Shown here: in pieces, positions 9,581 to 19,571 of the stretch
Numbering within the stretch: position 1 is the stretch's first letter
How the letters are laid out: the number at the start of each line of letters is the position of its first letter
Source: Minisyncoccota bacterium
GTDB taxonomy: Bacteria; Patescibacteriota; Minisyncoccia; Phycocordibacterales; UBA9973
Direction: 5' to 3'
Assembly (NCBI GenBank): GCA_018062505.1
Contig: JAGOSA010000001.1
Coordinates: 1 to 35,333, forward strand
DNA length: 35,333 nt
The notes under the pieces: generated by a model
Database searches by the model: none
What the model saw: only the letters and a program-made list of their open reading frames with translations
What the model was told of the DNA's origin: nothing
Program-made: the position numbers and the translations under genes

Positions 9581-10153
9581 CTAAAGCATCGTTTCTTTGA
9601 GGCTTTTATTCACTTCTTTAGTAAGCGCTTCGCGGCGAAGTGCGACTTGTACCAAGAGTTCAGGCGTTATCGGCGCCTCCAATATGCTTTTTTCTCCGCT
9701 GTCCGTAACATAGCCAAGGTAAAAGAGAATGCGGAAAACAGCCAAGAGTTCAAGTGATGCAATATCTATGGTCTGATTTTTTATTGAGATAAAATTGATG
9801 ACCTCTATGATAGCCTCAAAAAGCGGCTCATTTTTTTCTTGTTCAGGAACGAGACGCCGCACCAAACCAGCGATCCTGTGGAGTGCTGTAAGTGTTGCCA
9901 TGTCGAGCGAGCCGAGGCTCAAAATCAAATCTGTGCTACCGGCGCGGTACGCAGCTTTTGTCACAATCAAATCAATTTGCGCAACCATATACGGCTGTAG
10001 CGCAAAGCGCTGCTTTGATGTCGGCTTCCTAAATCCCCTCGCATCCGCGCGCACTAAACCAAGATCTCTTGTATAGAGAACAATCTGCCTGTCTGCTTCC
10101 CCGCGCGAGTAGCCGCCAAGGACAATGGCTTCGGTGTGGTGGATGTGATTCAT
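9581..10153 (-). CDS. recO: DNA repair protein RecO (short)
   Basis: The N-terminus, TEAIVLGGYSRGEADRQIVL followed by YTRDLGLVRADARGFRKP (residues 8-45), is the RecO OB-fold signature. RecO loads RecA on SSB-coated single-stranded DNA and anneals strands in the RecFOR pathway. At 190 residues it is shorter than the usual 230-250 and shows no CxxC zinc motif in the C-terminal helical part. It lies three bases after the coiled-coil gene and 18 bases before the DUF11-like gene. RecO is a weakly conserved family, but the N-terminal match and size are good. Confidence 0.85.
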   Translation of the reverse strand: MNHIHHTEAIVLGGYSRGEADRQIVLYTRDLGLVRADARGFRKPTSKQRFALQPYMVAQIDLIVTKAAYRAGSTDLILSLGSLDMATLTALHRIAGLVRRLVPEQEKNEPLFEAIIEVINFISIKNQTIDIASLELLAVFRILFYLGYVTDSGEKSILEAPITPELLVQVALRREALTKEVNKSLKETML

Positions 10154-10912: not shown

Positions 10913-11527
10913 TTACTGCAGAAGCTCTTCAATGGCCATCTCAAGCTCGCTTGGCGTTTTGACGATCTTCTCCGGATTCACAATCCGCAGCATTTCTTCA
11001 TCGTGCAAACCCCAGAGAACACCAATCGTTTTGACGCCAGTCGGCTTGGCCTCAAGCACATCGCCTGACGTGTCGGTGATCATTACGGCATCGTGCGGCT
11101 CTACCATATGAGTGCTCAAGATATGCTTAATTTTTTCTTCTTTGCTCAAATGCGATTCATAGCCGAGAACTTGAGTAAAATGCTCGAGTAATTCTTGGCC
11201 GCGCAAATAGTCTTTGATAACATCTTCTGATCCTGAAGAGACAATAAATATTTCATGGCTATTCGAAAATTTCCTGATGATATCGCCTAGTGCTTCTTGT
11301 ACTTTTTCCTCAGTAAGTTTTGCATTGTATTTATTTTTGTAATCTGGATCGAGTACAAATGTACCGGCCTGTATCCCATCGCGAACAGCCTCAATAAAGT
11401 TGCCATCGCTCATAGCTTGGAAAGTCGTGTATTCGAGATTAGGATTCGATTCTTTATATACGCTGTACCAGATTTCGGCCGTATTCACGAGCACGCCATC
11501 AAAGTCGAAGAGAAGAGCTTTTTTCAT
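10913..11527 (-). CDS. HAD-superfamily hydrolase (phosphatase-like)
   Basis: HAD motif I is DFDGVLV with nucleophile D8 and acid D10. Motif II is the SSGSED serine region near residue 98, a conserved lysine follows (KEEKIKH), and motif IV is ITDTSGDVLEA with its acidic pair. A helical cap lies between motifs I and II, as in the beta-phosphoglucomutase/Gph branch. These enzymes act as cytosolic phosphatases or phosphomutases on small metabolites; the substrate cannot be told. It starts five bases after ileS ends, so it is coupled to it. Confidence 0.88.
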   Translation of the reverse strand: MKKALLFDFDGVLVNTAEIWYSVYKESNPNLEYTTFQAMSDGNFIEAVRDGIQAGTFVLDPDYKNKYNAKLTEEKVQEALGDIIRKFSNSHEIFIVSSGSEDVIKDYLRGQELLEHFTQVLGYESHLSKEEKIKHILSTHMVEPHDAVMITDTSGDVLEAKPTGVKTIGVLWGLHDEEMLRIVNPEKIVKTPSELEMAIEELLQ

Positions 11528-11532
11528 ATTTT

Positions 11533-14500
11533 TTATTTCTCAATCTTAACCTTAAATACCAAGTCGCCAACCTTCACTTCTTCTCCATAGTTCGCGCCAA
11601 AGTTAATTCGCTCAGCCAAAACTGTTTTCTGGATATCGTCAGCAAATGTTTCAATCAGCTGTGTTCCCTGTTCATCGCTTTCAATTGTGAGAGTTATAAC
11701 ATCAGAAGGAGTAAGTCCTGCTGCTTTTCGCATATCCTGTATCGCACGCATAAGTTCCCGAACAACACCTTCTGCTCTGAGCTCAGGAGTGATTTCAGTT
11801 TCGAGAACAACTTCGCCTTTCGGCAATGATTCGTCAACAACGATTTCTTTGATATTGAGTTCCTCTTTCATGACGTCAAAATAATCTGCTGGCAGATTTT
11901 CCGAAATCGAAAGTTTCGAGAGTGGCTGGCGAACTGGGATTTTATTTTCCTGACGAGCAGCAAGTGCCTTCTCAACAATTGCGCGAGTGCGCTCCATATC
12001 TGAAAGAACGACATCGTTGACGACATCAGCAACTGGCCACTCCGAAAGATGAACGCTCTCTGCATCAGGATTTGCGCCGCTATCATTCTTAAGTTTCTGC
12101 CAAATGTCTTCAGCAGTGAAAGGCGCAAATGGCGCAAGAAGCTGAGCCAATATCCTCATGGCAAAGTAAAGAGTCGCTTTAGCTTCTTTTTCGTTGTTCT
12201 TAATACGTTCACGCGAACGACGCAAATACCACGTTGAAAGATCATCGATAAAGAGATCGAACGGTCGAGTCGCTTCCACGATATCGTACGCTTCCATGCC
12301 TCTAGTAATGTCAGTCACAAGTTGATTAAGTCGCGACATGATCCAAGCATCGAGAACGTTATTTGAAGCCGGAGCTGCTGCACTTTCGACACTCATATCG
12401 CGATAGAGTTCGTAGAACGTGAGAACGTTATACAAACGACCGATCAATTTCTTACTAATATCATCAACGCTTTTTTCAGAGAAATTAGCATCCTCGCCTT
12501 TCATTAGCGGACTGGACATAAGATAGAGTCGGAGCGCATCGACACCATACTTATCAAATAAGATCCACGGATCGGGAAAATTATTTTTTGACTTCGACAT
12601 TTTCTGTCCATCTTCTGCTTGGAGTGTACCAGTTGTGACAATATGTTCGAATGGCGCATGGCCAAAGAGCACCGTTGAAATAACGTGCGAGTAGTAGAAC
12701 CACGTACGAGTTTGCGCAATATACTCTGCTACAAAACCTGCTGGGAAATTTTCTTTTATCCAATTTGGGCGATCGAATGGATGGTGGTCTTGAGCAAATG
12801 GCATTGAACCAGATTCAAACCAACAATCGATAACTTCCGGAATGCGTGTATATTCTTCATCGTTTTCATCTACTAACGTTACGGCATCGATGTATGGTCG
12901 GTGGAAATCAAGATCATAGTCGGCAGTATGCGGGAATGGTACGAAGTCGATTTTTTTATATTCAGCATTTTTATAGTATCGATAATGTTCAGCTTTTGTA
13001 AGAATGTCGAAACAAGCATCAGGAGCAAGTCTGTTGACGCCCGTTTCGAGTGACCACGCCGGACCACCATGAGTAACGATGAGAATTTTTTTACCTTTAT
13101 ACTTTGATTCAATATCAAAGATGAATGAAAGCATGCGCTTACGTAGATCACAGTATGATTCACCACCCTCAGGAGCCTTGCGGTAGTATTCTATTTTCTT
13201 TGGAAATGCCGCGTGGAAATCATCCCAAGTTTTACCATTAAACGTTTTGCCCAAATACATTTCTCCGAGTCGCGCATCTTCGATGAGTGCATTACCGGAC
13301 AAACCAAAAGCCTCAGCAACTTCCATCGCTGTATTTTTTGTTCGAGCAAACGGTGAATAGATAATGTAATCGAGATCAGTTTCAGTTTTGAGTTTTGCCG
13401 CAGATTCAGCCACAACTTTTTTGCCACCCTCCGTTAGTTCGGATGGCTCAGTGATCTCGTCAGAGACAAGATTTTTGAGATTACCATCTGTTTCACCGTG
13501 GCGCATAACGAAATAGGTGTTGCCCGATTTTTTAGTTTTCTCTAGGAGTTCAGTAAGTGAACCAACAAAGAGCAATTCGCCTTTTTGATTTTTCCAAATC
13601 GGAAGCGGTGAAGCCCAATAGCGATTACGCGAGATCGTCCAGTCTGGTGCACTTTCAAGAATCGCACCGAAGCGACCATTCTTGAGGTGTGCTGGTACCC
13701 AATTCATTTCTTTGGCATGATCAATGAGGTCAGATTTTATTTTCTGAATATTTACGAACCACGACGGCAGTGCGTAATAGTAGAGCGGTGTATCACAGCG
13801 ATGACAGTGCGGGTATGAGTGAATGATCTTTTCTTTTTCAAAAAGGTGGTGATTATGCGCGAGGTATTTAATGATCTCAATGTCACCTGCCTGATGATTG
13901 TCTTTCGGCTTTACGTATTGACCTGGGAAATGACTGATTTCATCTTTGAATTTTCCTGTTGGCGTAACGTGAATGATCCATGGTAAATTTTCTTTCTTAG
14001 CGAGATTCATATCGTCTTCGCCAAATGCTGGGGCAATATGCACGACACCAGTACCAGCATCAAGCGTGACAAAATCTGCTGCGACAACAGTCCAGGTTTT
14101 CTTGCCGCTACTTGGCGCTTTTTCGCCGGCAATATTTTCGTCGTGCATATAGTAATCAAAAACTGGTTCGTACTTTTTGCCGACAAGCTCACTTCCCTTC
14201 ACCTCCCCGACAATTTCATATGCAGGCTTAATGACCGACAACCGTTCTTTAGCCAAAATGTATGTCGCTTCTTCTATCTTTATTTTGACATAATCAAATT
14301 CAGGATTAATTGCAAGTGCAACGTTCCCTGGAAGTGTCCAAGGAGTTGTTGTCCAAGCGATCAAATATGTTTTAGGTTCATCAACAAGTGCGAATTTTAC
14401 ATAAGCAGAAATATCTGTGATATCTTTGTAGCTATTATCCATGGCGATCTCGGAGTTAGCGATCGGTGTTTCGCAACGGGGACAGTAAGCAAGCACGCGA

Positions 14501-15030
14501 ACACCTTCATAGACGAGACCTTTTTTATTGAGCTCAGAAAGTGCCCACCAAACAGATTCGATGAACGTATTGTCCATTGTCTTGTAACCATTATCAAAAT
14601 CAACCCAGCGACCGATACGATCAACAGTTTTTTTCCATTCACCAACGTATGTCAACACTTTGCTGCGCGCAGTTTCGGTAAAGTTTTCAATACCGTATGC
14701 TTCAATCTCTTTGCGCCCAGAAATACCTAAAGTTTTTTCAACAATGTTTTCAATCGGCAAACCATGACAATCCCAACCCCACCGTCGAGGAACGTGGTAA
14801 CCTTGCATCGTTTTGTAGCGACCGACGACATCTTTTGCTGTACTGCCGAGAACATGGCCGTAGTGCGGCAGGCCTGTTGCGAACGGCGGACCGTCGTAAA
14901 AAACGTAGTTACCTTTCGGCGCATCTTTGAGCAGCGATTTTTGGAACATGCTCTCCTTTTGCCAAAAAGTGAGAATTTTTTCTTCGCGCTCAGCTTGCAC
15001 TGATTTTTTTGTTTCTTCGTTGTCTTTCAT
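11533..15030 (-). CDS. ileS: Isoleucyl-tRNA synthetase (type 2) with an inserted histidine-phosphatase domain
   Basis: The 1165-residue enzyme charges tRNA-Ile. The HIGH motif is HYGH (56-59) inside GPPFATGLPHYGH, the eukaryote-like IleRS2 form. The CP1 editing domain is intact (TTTPWTLPGN at 227-236, GEDD at 337-340), and KMSKS is at 810-814. Between SLTELLEK (about 498) and the DFHRPYID segment (708-715), where IleRS normally has a short linker, lies about 190 residues of histidine-phosphatase fold: RHGET (510-514), SPFAR (559-563), E590, GGES (622-625) and VTHGGP (652-657). All catalytic residues of that superfamily are present. The frame is uninterrupted, so this is a domain insertion rather than two genes. 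Expression is probably controlled by the upstream T-box leader. HAD, coiled-coil and recO genes follow closely. Confidence 0.97.
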   Translation of the reverse strand: MKDNEETKKSVQAEREEKILTFWQKESMFQKSLLKDAPKGNYVFYDGPPFATGLPHYGHVLGSTAKDVVGRYKTMQGYHVPRRWGWDCHGLPIENIVEKTLGISGRKEIEAYGIENFTETARSKVLTYVGEWKKTVDRIGRWVDFDNGYKTMDNTFIESVWWALSELNKKGLVYEGVRVLAYCPRCETPIANSEIAMDNSYKDITDISAYVKFALVDEPKTYLIAWTTTPWTLPGNVALAINPEFDYVKIKIEEATYILAKERLSVIKPAYEIVGEVKGSELVGKKYEPVFDYYMHDENIAGEKAPSSGKKTWTVVAADFVTLDAGTGVVHIAPAFGEDDMNLAKKENLPWIIHVTPTGKFKDEISHFPGQYVKPKDNHQAGDIEIIKYLAHNHHLFEKEKIIHSYPHCHRCDTPLYYYALPSWFVNIQKIKSDLIDHAKEMNWVPAHLKNGRFGAILESAPDWTISRNRYWASPLPIWKNQKGELLFVGSLTELLEKTKKSGNTYFVMRHGETDGNLKNLVSDEITEPSELTEGGKKVVAESAAKLKTETDLDYIIYSPFARTKNTAMEVAEAFGLSGNALIEDARLGEMYLGKTFNGKTWDDFHAAFPKKIEYYRKAPEGGESYCDLRKRMLSFIFDIESKYKGKKILIVTHGGPAWSLETGVNRLAPDACFDILTKAEHYRYYKNAEYKKIDFVPFPHTADYDLDFHRPYIDAVTLVDENDEEYTRIPEVIDCWFESGSMPFAQDHHPFDRPNWIKENFPAGFVAEYIAQTRTWFYYSHVISTVLFGHAPFEHIVTTGTLQAEDGQKMSKSKNNFPDPWILFDKYGVDALRLYLMSSPLMKGEDANFSEKSVDDISKKLIGRLYNVLTFYELYRDMSVESAAAPASNNVLDAWIMSRLNQLVTDITRGMEAYDIVEATRPFDLFIDDLSTWYLRRSRERIKNNEKEAKATLYFAMRILAQLLAPFAPFTAEDIWQKLKNDSGANPDAESVHLSEWPVADVVNDVVLSDMERTRAIVEKALAARQENKIPVRQPLSKLSISENLPADYFDVMKEELNIKEIVVDESLPKGEVVLETEITPELRAEGVVRELMRAIQDMRKAAGLTPSDVITLTIESDEQGTQLIETFADDIQKTVLAERINFGANYGEEVKVGDLVFKVKIEK

Positions 15031-17858: not shown

Positions 17859-19571
17859 CTACATCTTTTCCGGAATTTTGATGCCAAGCAAGTGCAAACC
17901 TTTTGTTAGCACAGTTGCAACAGCGCCGGCAACAGCAACTTTATAGTTACTTGTCGGATCGCCATCGACGATGATTTGCTCTTGCGCGTAAAACGAATTG
18001 AAGCTGCCGGCAAGTTCCATCATGTAGGTTGCAATGTGGTGAGGTTCACGCTCTTCAACAGCCCGCAAGGCGACAGCCGGAAAACGCTCGAGTATTCGCT
18101 CAATCGTGAGTGTTGCATCTGTCGGATGCTGCAGGCTTGCTTTCGTGCTCGTGCCTTCGGCTTTTCGGCAAACTGCGCGAGCGCGGGTTGCTGCGTACTG
18201 CAAGTACGGACCTGAATCGCCTTCAAATGAAATTGATTTTTCGAAATCGAAAATAATATCTGAGCCGACACTCGATCGTAAAATAGAATATTTAATTGCG
18301 GCAACGCCAACTGCTTCTGCAACTTCTTTTTTCTCAGCATCAGTAAAATCGCGCTCGCGGATGATTTCCATGATCGCATCTTTAGCATCGCGAATGAGCG
18401 ATTCGCCAGTGATGACATTGCCGCGTCGCGACGACATCTTTCCTGAAGCAAAGCGCATCATACCGTGGTTAACGTGTTCCATGCGCGCAGCGTAGCCTTC
18501 GCGCGGAAACATTTGGCGAATAGCTTCAGTGACAACTGCCATATAATCTTTTTGTTCCACTGCGGTATCAACAATACAGAGATCTGGCTCAAAATCAGTG
18601 AACTTAGCGACTGTAAGCGCAAGTTCTTTTGCATCATACAACGGCAATCCGCTACTCGTCAGAAAAACACGAGTGTGGAGTTTCGGATTAAAGCGCTCTG
18701 CGCGGAAAATAATTGCGCCTTCTGATTCTTCGAAAATACCTTTCGTCATATAATCTTTAACAAGTGCCACACCTTTCGGTGCAAGCTCAGATTCAAAATA
18801 GTACTTGTCGAATTTCGTGCCAAGCATAACGTAAATCTCTTCGAAAGCTTCAAGTGTTACTTTTCTGCCTTCGTCATATATTTCTTTGTAGACAGAGTCA
18901 CCGGCGTAAAGTTTTTTATTGATCTCATCCATCTCTGCTTTTGCAGCAGGATCATCTTCGTAGAGAGCTGCGCCGTATGCATAGCATTCACCAATGTATG
19001 CCGCTTTATCGTTGACTGTCTTGCCGAGTATTCCCTCACCTTTTTTGATGATGCCGTACATGGCTTTGGCAATGTGCGGACCGATATCGCCTTGATAGTT
19101 TGCGCGAATAACTTCGCCGCCATGAAAATCAACAAGTCGTGCTATCGATTCGCCGATTGCATTCGACATGAGGTGGCCAATGTGAAAAGGCTTGAAAGGA
19201 TTTGGCTGCGTATATTCGACGACAACTTTTTTAGCATCAAAAATGTCGCTCTTACCGTAGTGTTCGCCGTCGCGAAGGATGAATTCCAAAATGCCCGTAA
19301 AGTATTCGCGGGACAAATGGAAGTTGATGAAGCCCGGTCCTGCAACATCGACAGACTCAATGTATGGCGGAAGATCTTTGCGCATTTCTTCAACAATCGC
19401 ATCTGCCATGTCTCTCGGCGATTTGCCGTACTGTTTTGATATGGCAAGTGTCGTCGACGACATGTAGTCGCCGTGCCCCATTTCCTTCGGATACACAACT
19501 TCGGGCTTGCCGACCATGTAGCCGCACTTGAGCATTATTTCGCCTAAATATAATTCGAGTTTTTCTTTCAT
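17859..19571 (-). CDS. argS: Arginyl-tRNA synthetase
   Basis: Class I synthetase for tRNA-Arg. The ATP site is PFKPFHIGH with HIGH at 130-133, and the KMSKS-equivalent is GKMSSRRGN. The N-terminal additional domain carries VAGPGFINFHLS (76-87), and the C-terminal DALR-type anticodon domain ends with YKVAVAGAVATVLTKGLHLL. The 570 residues are standard. It lies 18 bases downstream of dut and upstream of the three-helix membrane protein. No T-box or other leader is visible in front of it, unlike ileS. Confidence 0.96.
   Translation of the reverse strand: MKEKLELYLGEIMLKCGYMVGKPEVVYPKEMGHGDYMSSTTLAISKQYGKSPRDMADAIVEEMRKDLPPYIESVDVAGPGFINFHLSREYFTGILEFILRDGEHYGKSDIFDAKKVVVEYTQPNPFKPFHIGHLMSNAIGESIARLVDFHGGEVIRANYQGDIGPHIAKAMYGIIKKGEGILGKTVNDKAAYIGECYAYGAALYEDDPAAKAEMDEINKKLYAGDSVYKEIYDEGRKVTLEAFEEIYVMLGTKFDKYYFESELAPKGVALVKDYMTKGIFEESEGAIIFRAERFNPKLHTRVFLTSSGLPLYDAKELALTVAKFTDFEPDLCIVDTAVEQKDYMAVVTEAIRQMFPREGYAARMEHVNHGMMRFASGKMSSRRGNVITGESLIRDAKDAIMEIIRERDFTDAEKKEVAEAVGVAAIKYSILRSSVGSDIIFDFEKSISFEGDSGPYLQYAATRARAVCRKAEGTSTKASLQHPTDATLTIERILERFPAVALRAVEEREPHHIATYMMELAGSFNSFYAQEQIIVDGDPTSNYKVAVAGAVATVLTKGLHLLGIKIPEKM

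Follow-up and report, generated by a model that had tools for sequence, protein, structure and literature searches.

A histidine phosphatase domain inside the isoleucyl-tRNA synthetase of a patescibacterial class

Introduction

The described isoleucyl-tRNA synthetases (IleRS) that come closest to the enzyme analysed here are those of type 2, or eukaryote-like (Priestia megaterium IleRS2, 8c8u; yeast, 7d5c and 8wnd; Thermus, 1ile). The likeness covers the whole host enzyme (40-42% identity, Z 40-46), but none of them has a phosphatase, and the place where our protein carries one is a short linker in them. The phosphatases PhoE, PspA and CobC (1h2e, 4ij5, 6nru) share with our insert the fold and the full catalytic set (Z 19-22, E values down to 3e-25), but they are free enzymes of about 200 amino acids and do not lie within a synthetase. 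An IleRS with an extra enzyme domain has an NCBIfam entry of its own (NF040702, ileS_w_GNAT), and one IleRS in our survey (L216) likewise has a GNAT domain. The addition in NF040702 is, however, an acetyltransferase and not a phosphatase, and the protein described here scores far below the cut-off of that entry.

The remaining system consists of toxSAS and small alarmone hydrolase pairs (FaRel, FaRel2), in which a small RelA/SpoT-like gene lies beside a hydrolase gene (PMC11559606, PMC11782079). A toxSAS synthetase can pyrophosphorylate the CCA end of tRNA, and an HD-type hydrolase removes this mark (PMC11559606). We found comparable gene pairs in relatives of our genome. The known hydrolase antidotes are HD-type; the partner here, seen as a paired gene, encodes an HD_4 protein or a histidine phosphatase. 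In the literature searched we found no description of a histidine phosphatase acting as a toxSAS hydrolase or residing inside a synthetase, which agrees with the view of the first-pass annotation of this DNA that a synthetase with a phosphatase in this position is not a known characterised type.

Here we describe such a synthetase from the window, a stretch of 35,333 nucleotides from a Minisyncoccota bacterium (contig JAGOSA010000001.1), and its relatives. A second catalytic centre of another chemistry has been fixed in an essential synthetase across a whole class and gained several times in IleRS and in the valine enzyme. We take this as a sign of a so far undescribed step of phosphate removal linked to tRNA charging.

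Results

The ileS gene of the window encodes an intact IleRS that carries a complete branch-1 histidine phosphatase (Table 1). In the Pfam search of the 1165-residue protein, tRNA-synt_1 was matched in two pieces with His_Phos_1 between them, and Anticodon_1 was found as well. The protein reached 833 bits against the NCBIfam ileS equivalog, whose cut-off is 621, and its best solved relatives are IleRS (8c8u, 9.7e-210). HYGH, KMSKS and the editing motifs TWTTTPW and GTGVVHIAPAFGEDD are all present in the translation, and an alignment showed that the IleRS signature motifs are largely kept across 73 homologues. The G+C content of the insert equals that of the remainder of the gene.

Table 1. Features of the window ileS gene, its product and its neighbours (window coordinates)
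Feature	Position	Strand	Description
recO	9581-10153		downstream of ileS
HAD-type hydrolase gene	10913-11527		5 bases downstream of ileS
ileS	11533..15030	(-)	1165-aa isoleucyl-tRNA synthetase with inserted phosphatase; frame open, no internal stop
IleRS C-terminal part, aa 708-1165	11536..12909	(-)	second catalytic half with KMSKS (aa 810-814), anticodon-binding and C-terminal domains
Insert, aa 494-707	12910..13551	(-)	histidine phosphatase domain and linkers
Pfam His_Phos_1 match, aa 507-665	13036..13512	(-)	E 1.5e-27; 96.9 bits, gathering cut-off 21.7
His654 of VTHGGP (from aa 652)	13069..13071	(-)	second catalytic His
Glu590	13261..13263	(-)	expected general acid
Arg563 of SPFAR (aa 559-563)	13342..13344	(-)	phosphate-binding Arg
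RHGET, aa 510-514	13489..13503	(-)	Arg510 and expected nucleophile His511
IleRS N-terminal part, aa 1-493	13552..15030	(-)	first half of Rossmann catalytic domain with HYGH, and CP1 editing domain
argS	17859-19571		upstream of ileS

The insert lies downstream of the editing domain and ahead of KMSKS; GSLTELLEK precedes it, and DFHRPYID follows from residue 708. The same site in insert-free IleRS, for example that of G056, is a short linker (GSTQELKAHSASTIAEQADLHRPNID). The insert contains the full branch-1 catalytic set of RHG, a second Arg, an acidic Glu and a second His (R510, H511, R563, E590 and H654), as well as a GGES motif at about residues 622-625. A complete histidine phosphatase domain within a continuous ileS frame was what the first-pass annotation had claimed from the sequence, and the open frame and the Pfam match bear it out. 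RHGET, SPFAR, E590, GGES and VTHGGP, which it had named, were all found in the translation, and its insertion site between SLTELLEK and DFHRPYID, said to be a short linker in canonical IleRS, agrees with the insert-free enzyme of G056. It had put the domain at 12935-13535; the place is right, but the insert is slightly wider, covering about residues 494-707. It had also called for a domain search, a structure model and a survey of Patescibacteria IleRS. The search found His_Phos_1, so that a refutation by lack of a match fails, the model was confident, and the survey turned the one case it saw into a class-wide insertion with repeated origins that occurs in the valyl-tRNA synthetase (ValRS) too. 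The probability that an assembly or annotation artefact joined two genes is practically nil, since the same junction is present in dozens of independent assemblies.

A structure model of the whole protein, built from the 73 aligned homologues, had a mean pLDDT of 90.9 and a pTM of 0.84, and most of the insert was above 80. The host part of the model matched the solved IleRS 7d5c (Z 45.9 over 852 residues, 2.5 A) and 8c8u (Z 43.5). When modelled alone, the insert reached a pLDDT of 94 and matched the PspA phosphoserine phosphatase 4ij6 with a Z of 22.2 over 183 residues; mycobacterial Rv2419c and PhoE (Z 20.9) were among its other fold matches. By these models, the insert is predicted to fold like the PspA/PhoE phosphatases. 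At the sequence level, its profile matched PhoE at 3e-25 and PspA at 3e-24. The nearest families, PhoE, PspA and CobC, are phosphomonoesterases by their names and records. None of the named NCBIfam equivalogs (alpha-ribazole phosphatase CobC, PspA, RNase H/acid phosphatase, phosphoglycerate mutase) was matched above its cut-off, the best scores being 76 vs 326 bits and 73 vs 163 bits, and the substrate of the insert is therefore not readable from family membership.

The active site, which the first-pass annotation had judged intact, is strictly conserved. All 175 synthetase-embedded domains, whatever their group, have R510, H511, R563 and H654, and position 590 is Glu in 170 copies, Asp in four and Ser in one. 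The mean identity of the inserts is 0.40, near that of the C-terminal domain, so we rejected the idea that the insert evolves unusually fast. In close pairs its dN/dS was 0.03-0.17, a rough range because synonymous sites were saturated in several pairs, but one that shows purifying selection. Given the invariant active site and these ratios, catalysis has probably been kept and the inserted phosphatase is probably active.

The insert is a near-universal feature of the order of the window genome and a well supported trait of the whole patescibacterial class. Within the order, it was found in the IleRS frame in about 53 of the 54 relatives with the site covered; 49 were confirmed against the full-length IleRS, two were cut by contig ends and two are counted from the survey itself. 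One member of the order, G056, has a 980-residue IleRS that lacks the insert. A scan of named genomes gave an IleRS with the insert in 79 of the best 80 loci, some of them cut by contig ends. The matches include the candidate lineages Nomura-, Taylor-, Yonath-, Zambryski-, Lloyd-, Campbell-, Adler-, Vogel- and Wolfe-, as well as Sung-, Azam-, Harrison-, Lipton-, Colwell-, Doudna- and others. Those of the best 80 that bear a lineage name are all Patescibacteria, a result that leaves room for occurrence elsewhere as the query itself was built from Patescibacteria. Across an evenly spread sample of the phylum, IleRS frames were mostly 940-1080 amino acids long, and the six of 1040-1076 amino acids that we inspected had no phosphatase. 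All sampled members of the class, and 13 genomes outside it, did have one. In two loci of family f52 (L217 and L218), an IleRS of about 1225 amino acids has a different stretch of about 130 residues, with no Pfam match, at the same linker.

ValRS has a histidine phosphatase as well: the domain occupies the corresponding site of this enzyme in seven relatives and in several further genomes. We found no ValRS in the incomplete assembly of the window's own genome; a fragment on contig C8 was rejected as a candidate because it is a LeuRS without the insert. Some synthetases hold more than one domain. The IleRS of family f101 (1441-1551 amino acids; L103-L106, L125-L130) mostly have two tandem histidine phosphatases from different branches, the 1572-residue IleRS of G290 (L107, 2167-6882) has three at three different sites, and the ValRS of G104 has two. 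In the IleRS of G104 (L216, 1638-5990), a GNAT domain separates WFESG from KMSKS, and the histidine phosphatase precedes the anticodon-binding domain. The ValRS of G276 (L110, 1327-5157; 1277 amino acids) contains HAD (residues 229-342), serine hydrolase (631-772) and histidine phosphatase (819-1002) domains.

The domain trees unite the main IleRS inserts and recover two further clades, one of most ValRS inserts (100/98) and one of the second domains of f101 (100/99). The starred tree branches force several changes, and the domain was therefore acquired more than once; the exact number of acquisitions is unsure because the deep branches are weak. In two pairs of IleRS the inserts are more alike than the catalytic cores (0.63 vs 0.44 in L199/L208; 0.61 vs 0.45 in L040/L051), a hint that the insert or the core may have been exchanged between lineages.

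The domain also exists as a separate gene beside ileS. In bacterium CSMAG_2670 (L195, 4992-8481), argS is followed by a gene for a 199-residue histidine phosphatase, whose end meets the start of an ileS that lacks the insert. The product of this gene shares 51% identity with the IleRS inserts of L187 and L193, among which it falls in the tree (100/93); the L195 IleRS itself has its highest identity to the L193 enzyme. By sequence, this one case reads as a fission that kept the domain and IleRS together, and it suggests that the domain can work alone yet belongs with IleRS. Family f59 has histidine phosphatase genes at 6-7 kb from ileS, but they fall on another tree branch and were rejected as relatives. 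In G074 an HD-domain gene (L249, 5008-5574) lies between argS and an insert-free ileS, and in G167, whose family it shares, a small glyoxalase-like gene takes that position.

In the window, argS lies upstream and recO downstream of ileS. The latter is a conserved downstream neighbour, found near ileS in 76 of the loci searched. For the HAD-type hydrolase gene next to ileS, just four other ileS loci yielded a relative.

Discussion

The architecture is well supported; catalytic activity, substrate and benefit are inferred. We tentatively propose, with a probability of roughly 0.38, that the insert is an active phosphatase which clears a phosphate or pyrophosphate mark that blocks charging, tied to IleRS and ValRS. 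The class IleRS would then be a two-enzyme protein, with a PhoE/PspA-type phosphatase in the short linker after the CP1 editing domain, working via a phospho-His511 intermediate. IleRS and, independently, ValRS would carry the domain because charging would bring its substrate to the enzyme. As substrate, our first choice would be a mark of the kind that toxSAS-type RelA/SpoT-like enzymes leave on the tRNA 3' end, and the second a nucleotide or an alarmone. In favour of the proposal are the active site kept at low mean identity, the purifying selection, the near-universal occurrence, the separate origins in ValRS and within IleRS, and the separate gene beside ileS; against it, the order member G056 lives without the insert. 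The first-pass annotation had guessed at chemistry on a tRNA end, a nucleotide or an alarmone, to which the separate gene beside ileS and the phosphatase genes that replace the HD hydrolase next to small RelA/SpoT-like genes lend indirect support. A more specific version, built-in repair in which the domain would remove a phosphate or pyrophosphate put on the tRNA 3' end by RelA/SpoT-like or other enzymes before loading by IleRS or ValRS, is doubtful. The fixation of the domain across the class and its repeated gain in IleRS and ValRS suggest a recurrent phosphate problem at the charging step, absent from the textbook picture. Its study might reveal a mark on tRNA or nucleotides that serves in conflicts among these epibiotic bacteria, their hosts and phages.

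The insert might instead be a metabolite phosphatase, with a phosphorylated amino acid or sugar as a possible substrate, carried along by an essential and well-expressed protein in a small genome and without a functional tie to charging. PhoE, PspA and CobC as nearest families speak for this, as do the other enzymes borne by patescibacterial synthetases (the GNAT of L216, the HAD and serine hydrolase of L110). It would leave unexplained, however, why the domain landed repeatedly at the equivalent site of IleRS and ValRS and why the separate gene stayed beside ileS, and other standalone histidine phosphatase genes are present in the same genomes; we regard it as unlikely, if a serious contender. 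That the domain is a protein phosphatase undoing phosphorylation of the synthetase itself, for instance on the KMSKS serine, has a parallel in the action of HipA/HipT on GltX/TrpS: HipT phosphorylates the KMSKS serine (PMC6581861), and the half downstream of the insert contains KMSKS. No HipA_C gene was found in the 60 relatives, however, which led us to reject reversal of a HipA-type kinase and makes the broader idea improbable.

Loss of a relevant activity, with the domain kept as a structural or tRNA-binding module, would fit the other unmatched domain that can occupy the same site (L217), but the active site is invariant in 175 copies at 40% mean identity, and we consider this very improbable. 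Hydrolysis of the pyrophosphate from amino acid activation is hardly credible. Pyrophosphate is a local product of the host enzyme, but the domain was seen only in IleRS and ValRS, and the histidine phosphatase superfamily is not known to act on pyrophosphate in this way. A stand-in role for a missing pyrophosphatase was rejected, as a soluble pyrophosphatase (PF00719) is encoded in the own genome and in 42 of the 60 relatives.

Small RelA/SpoT-like genes and their partners

The first-choice substrate, a mark on the tRNA 3' end, is touched on by six small RelA/SpoT-like genes that we found in the order. Four directly adjoin a standalone histidine phosphatase gene on the same strand (L242, L243, L245 and L259; genomes G025, G046, G052 and G708), and the other two adjoin a gene for an HD_4-type, SpoT-like hydrolase on the opposite strand (L244 and L246; G001 and G018). 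A class-wide search for this family gave one strong match in 384, whereas the insert is universal, and none was found in the viral contigs scanned. In the domain tree, the IleRS inserts have closer relatives than the RelA/SpoT-paired phosphatases. Three of the pairs were placed in this tree and form one clade, which may reflect one event. By analogy, a histidine phosphatase in the place of the hydrolase suggests, as a lead rather than a proof, that members of the superfamily can undo such marks in these bacteria. Three of the four loci with a RelA/SpoT-phosphatase pair have a nucleoside-kinase-like gene beside it on the other strand.
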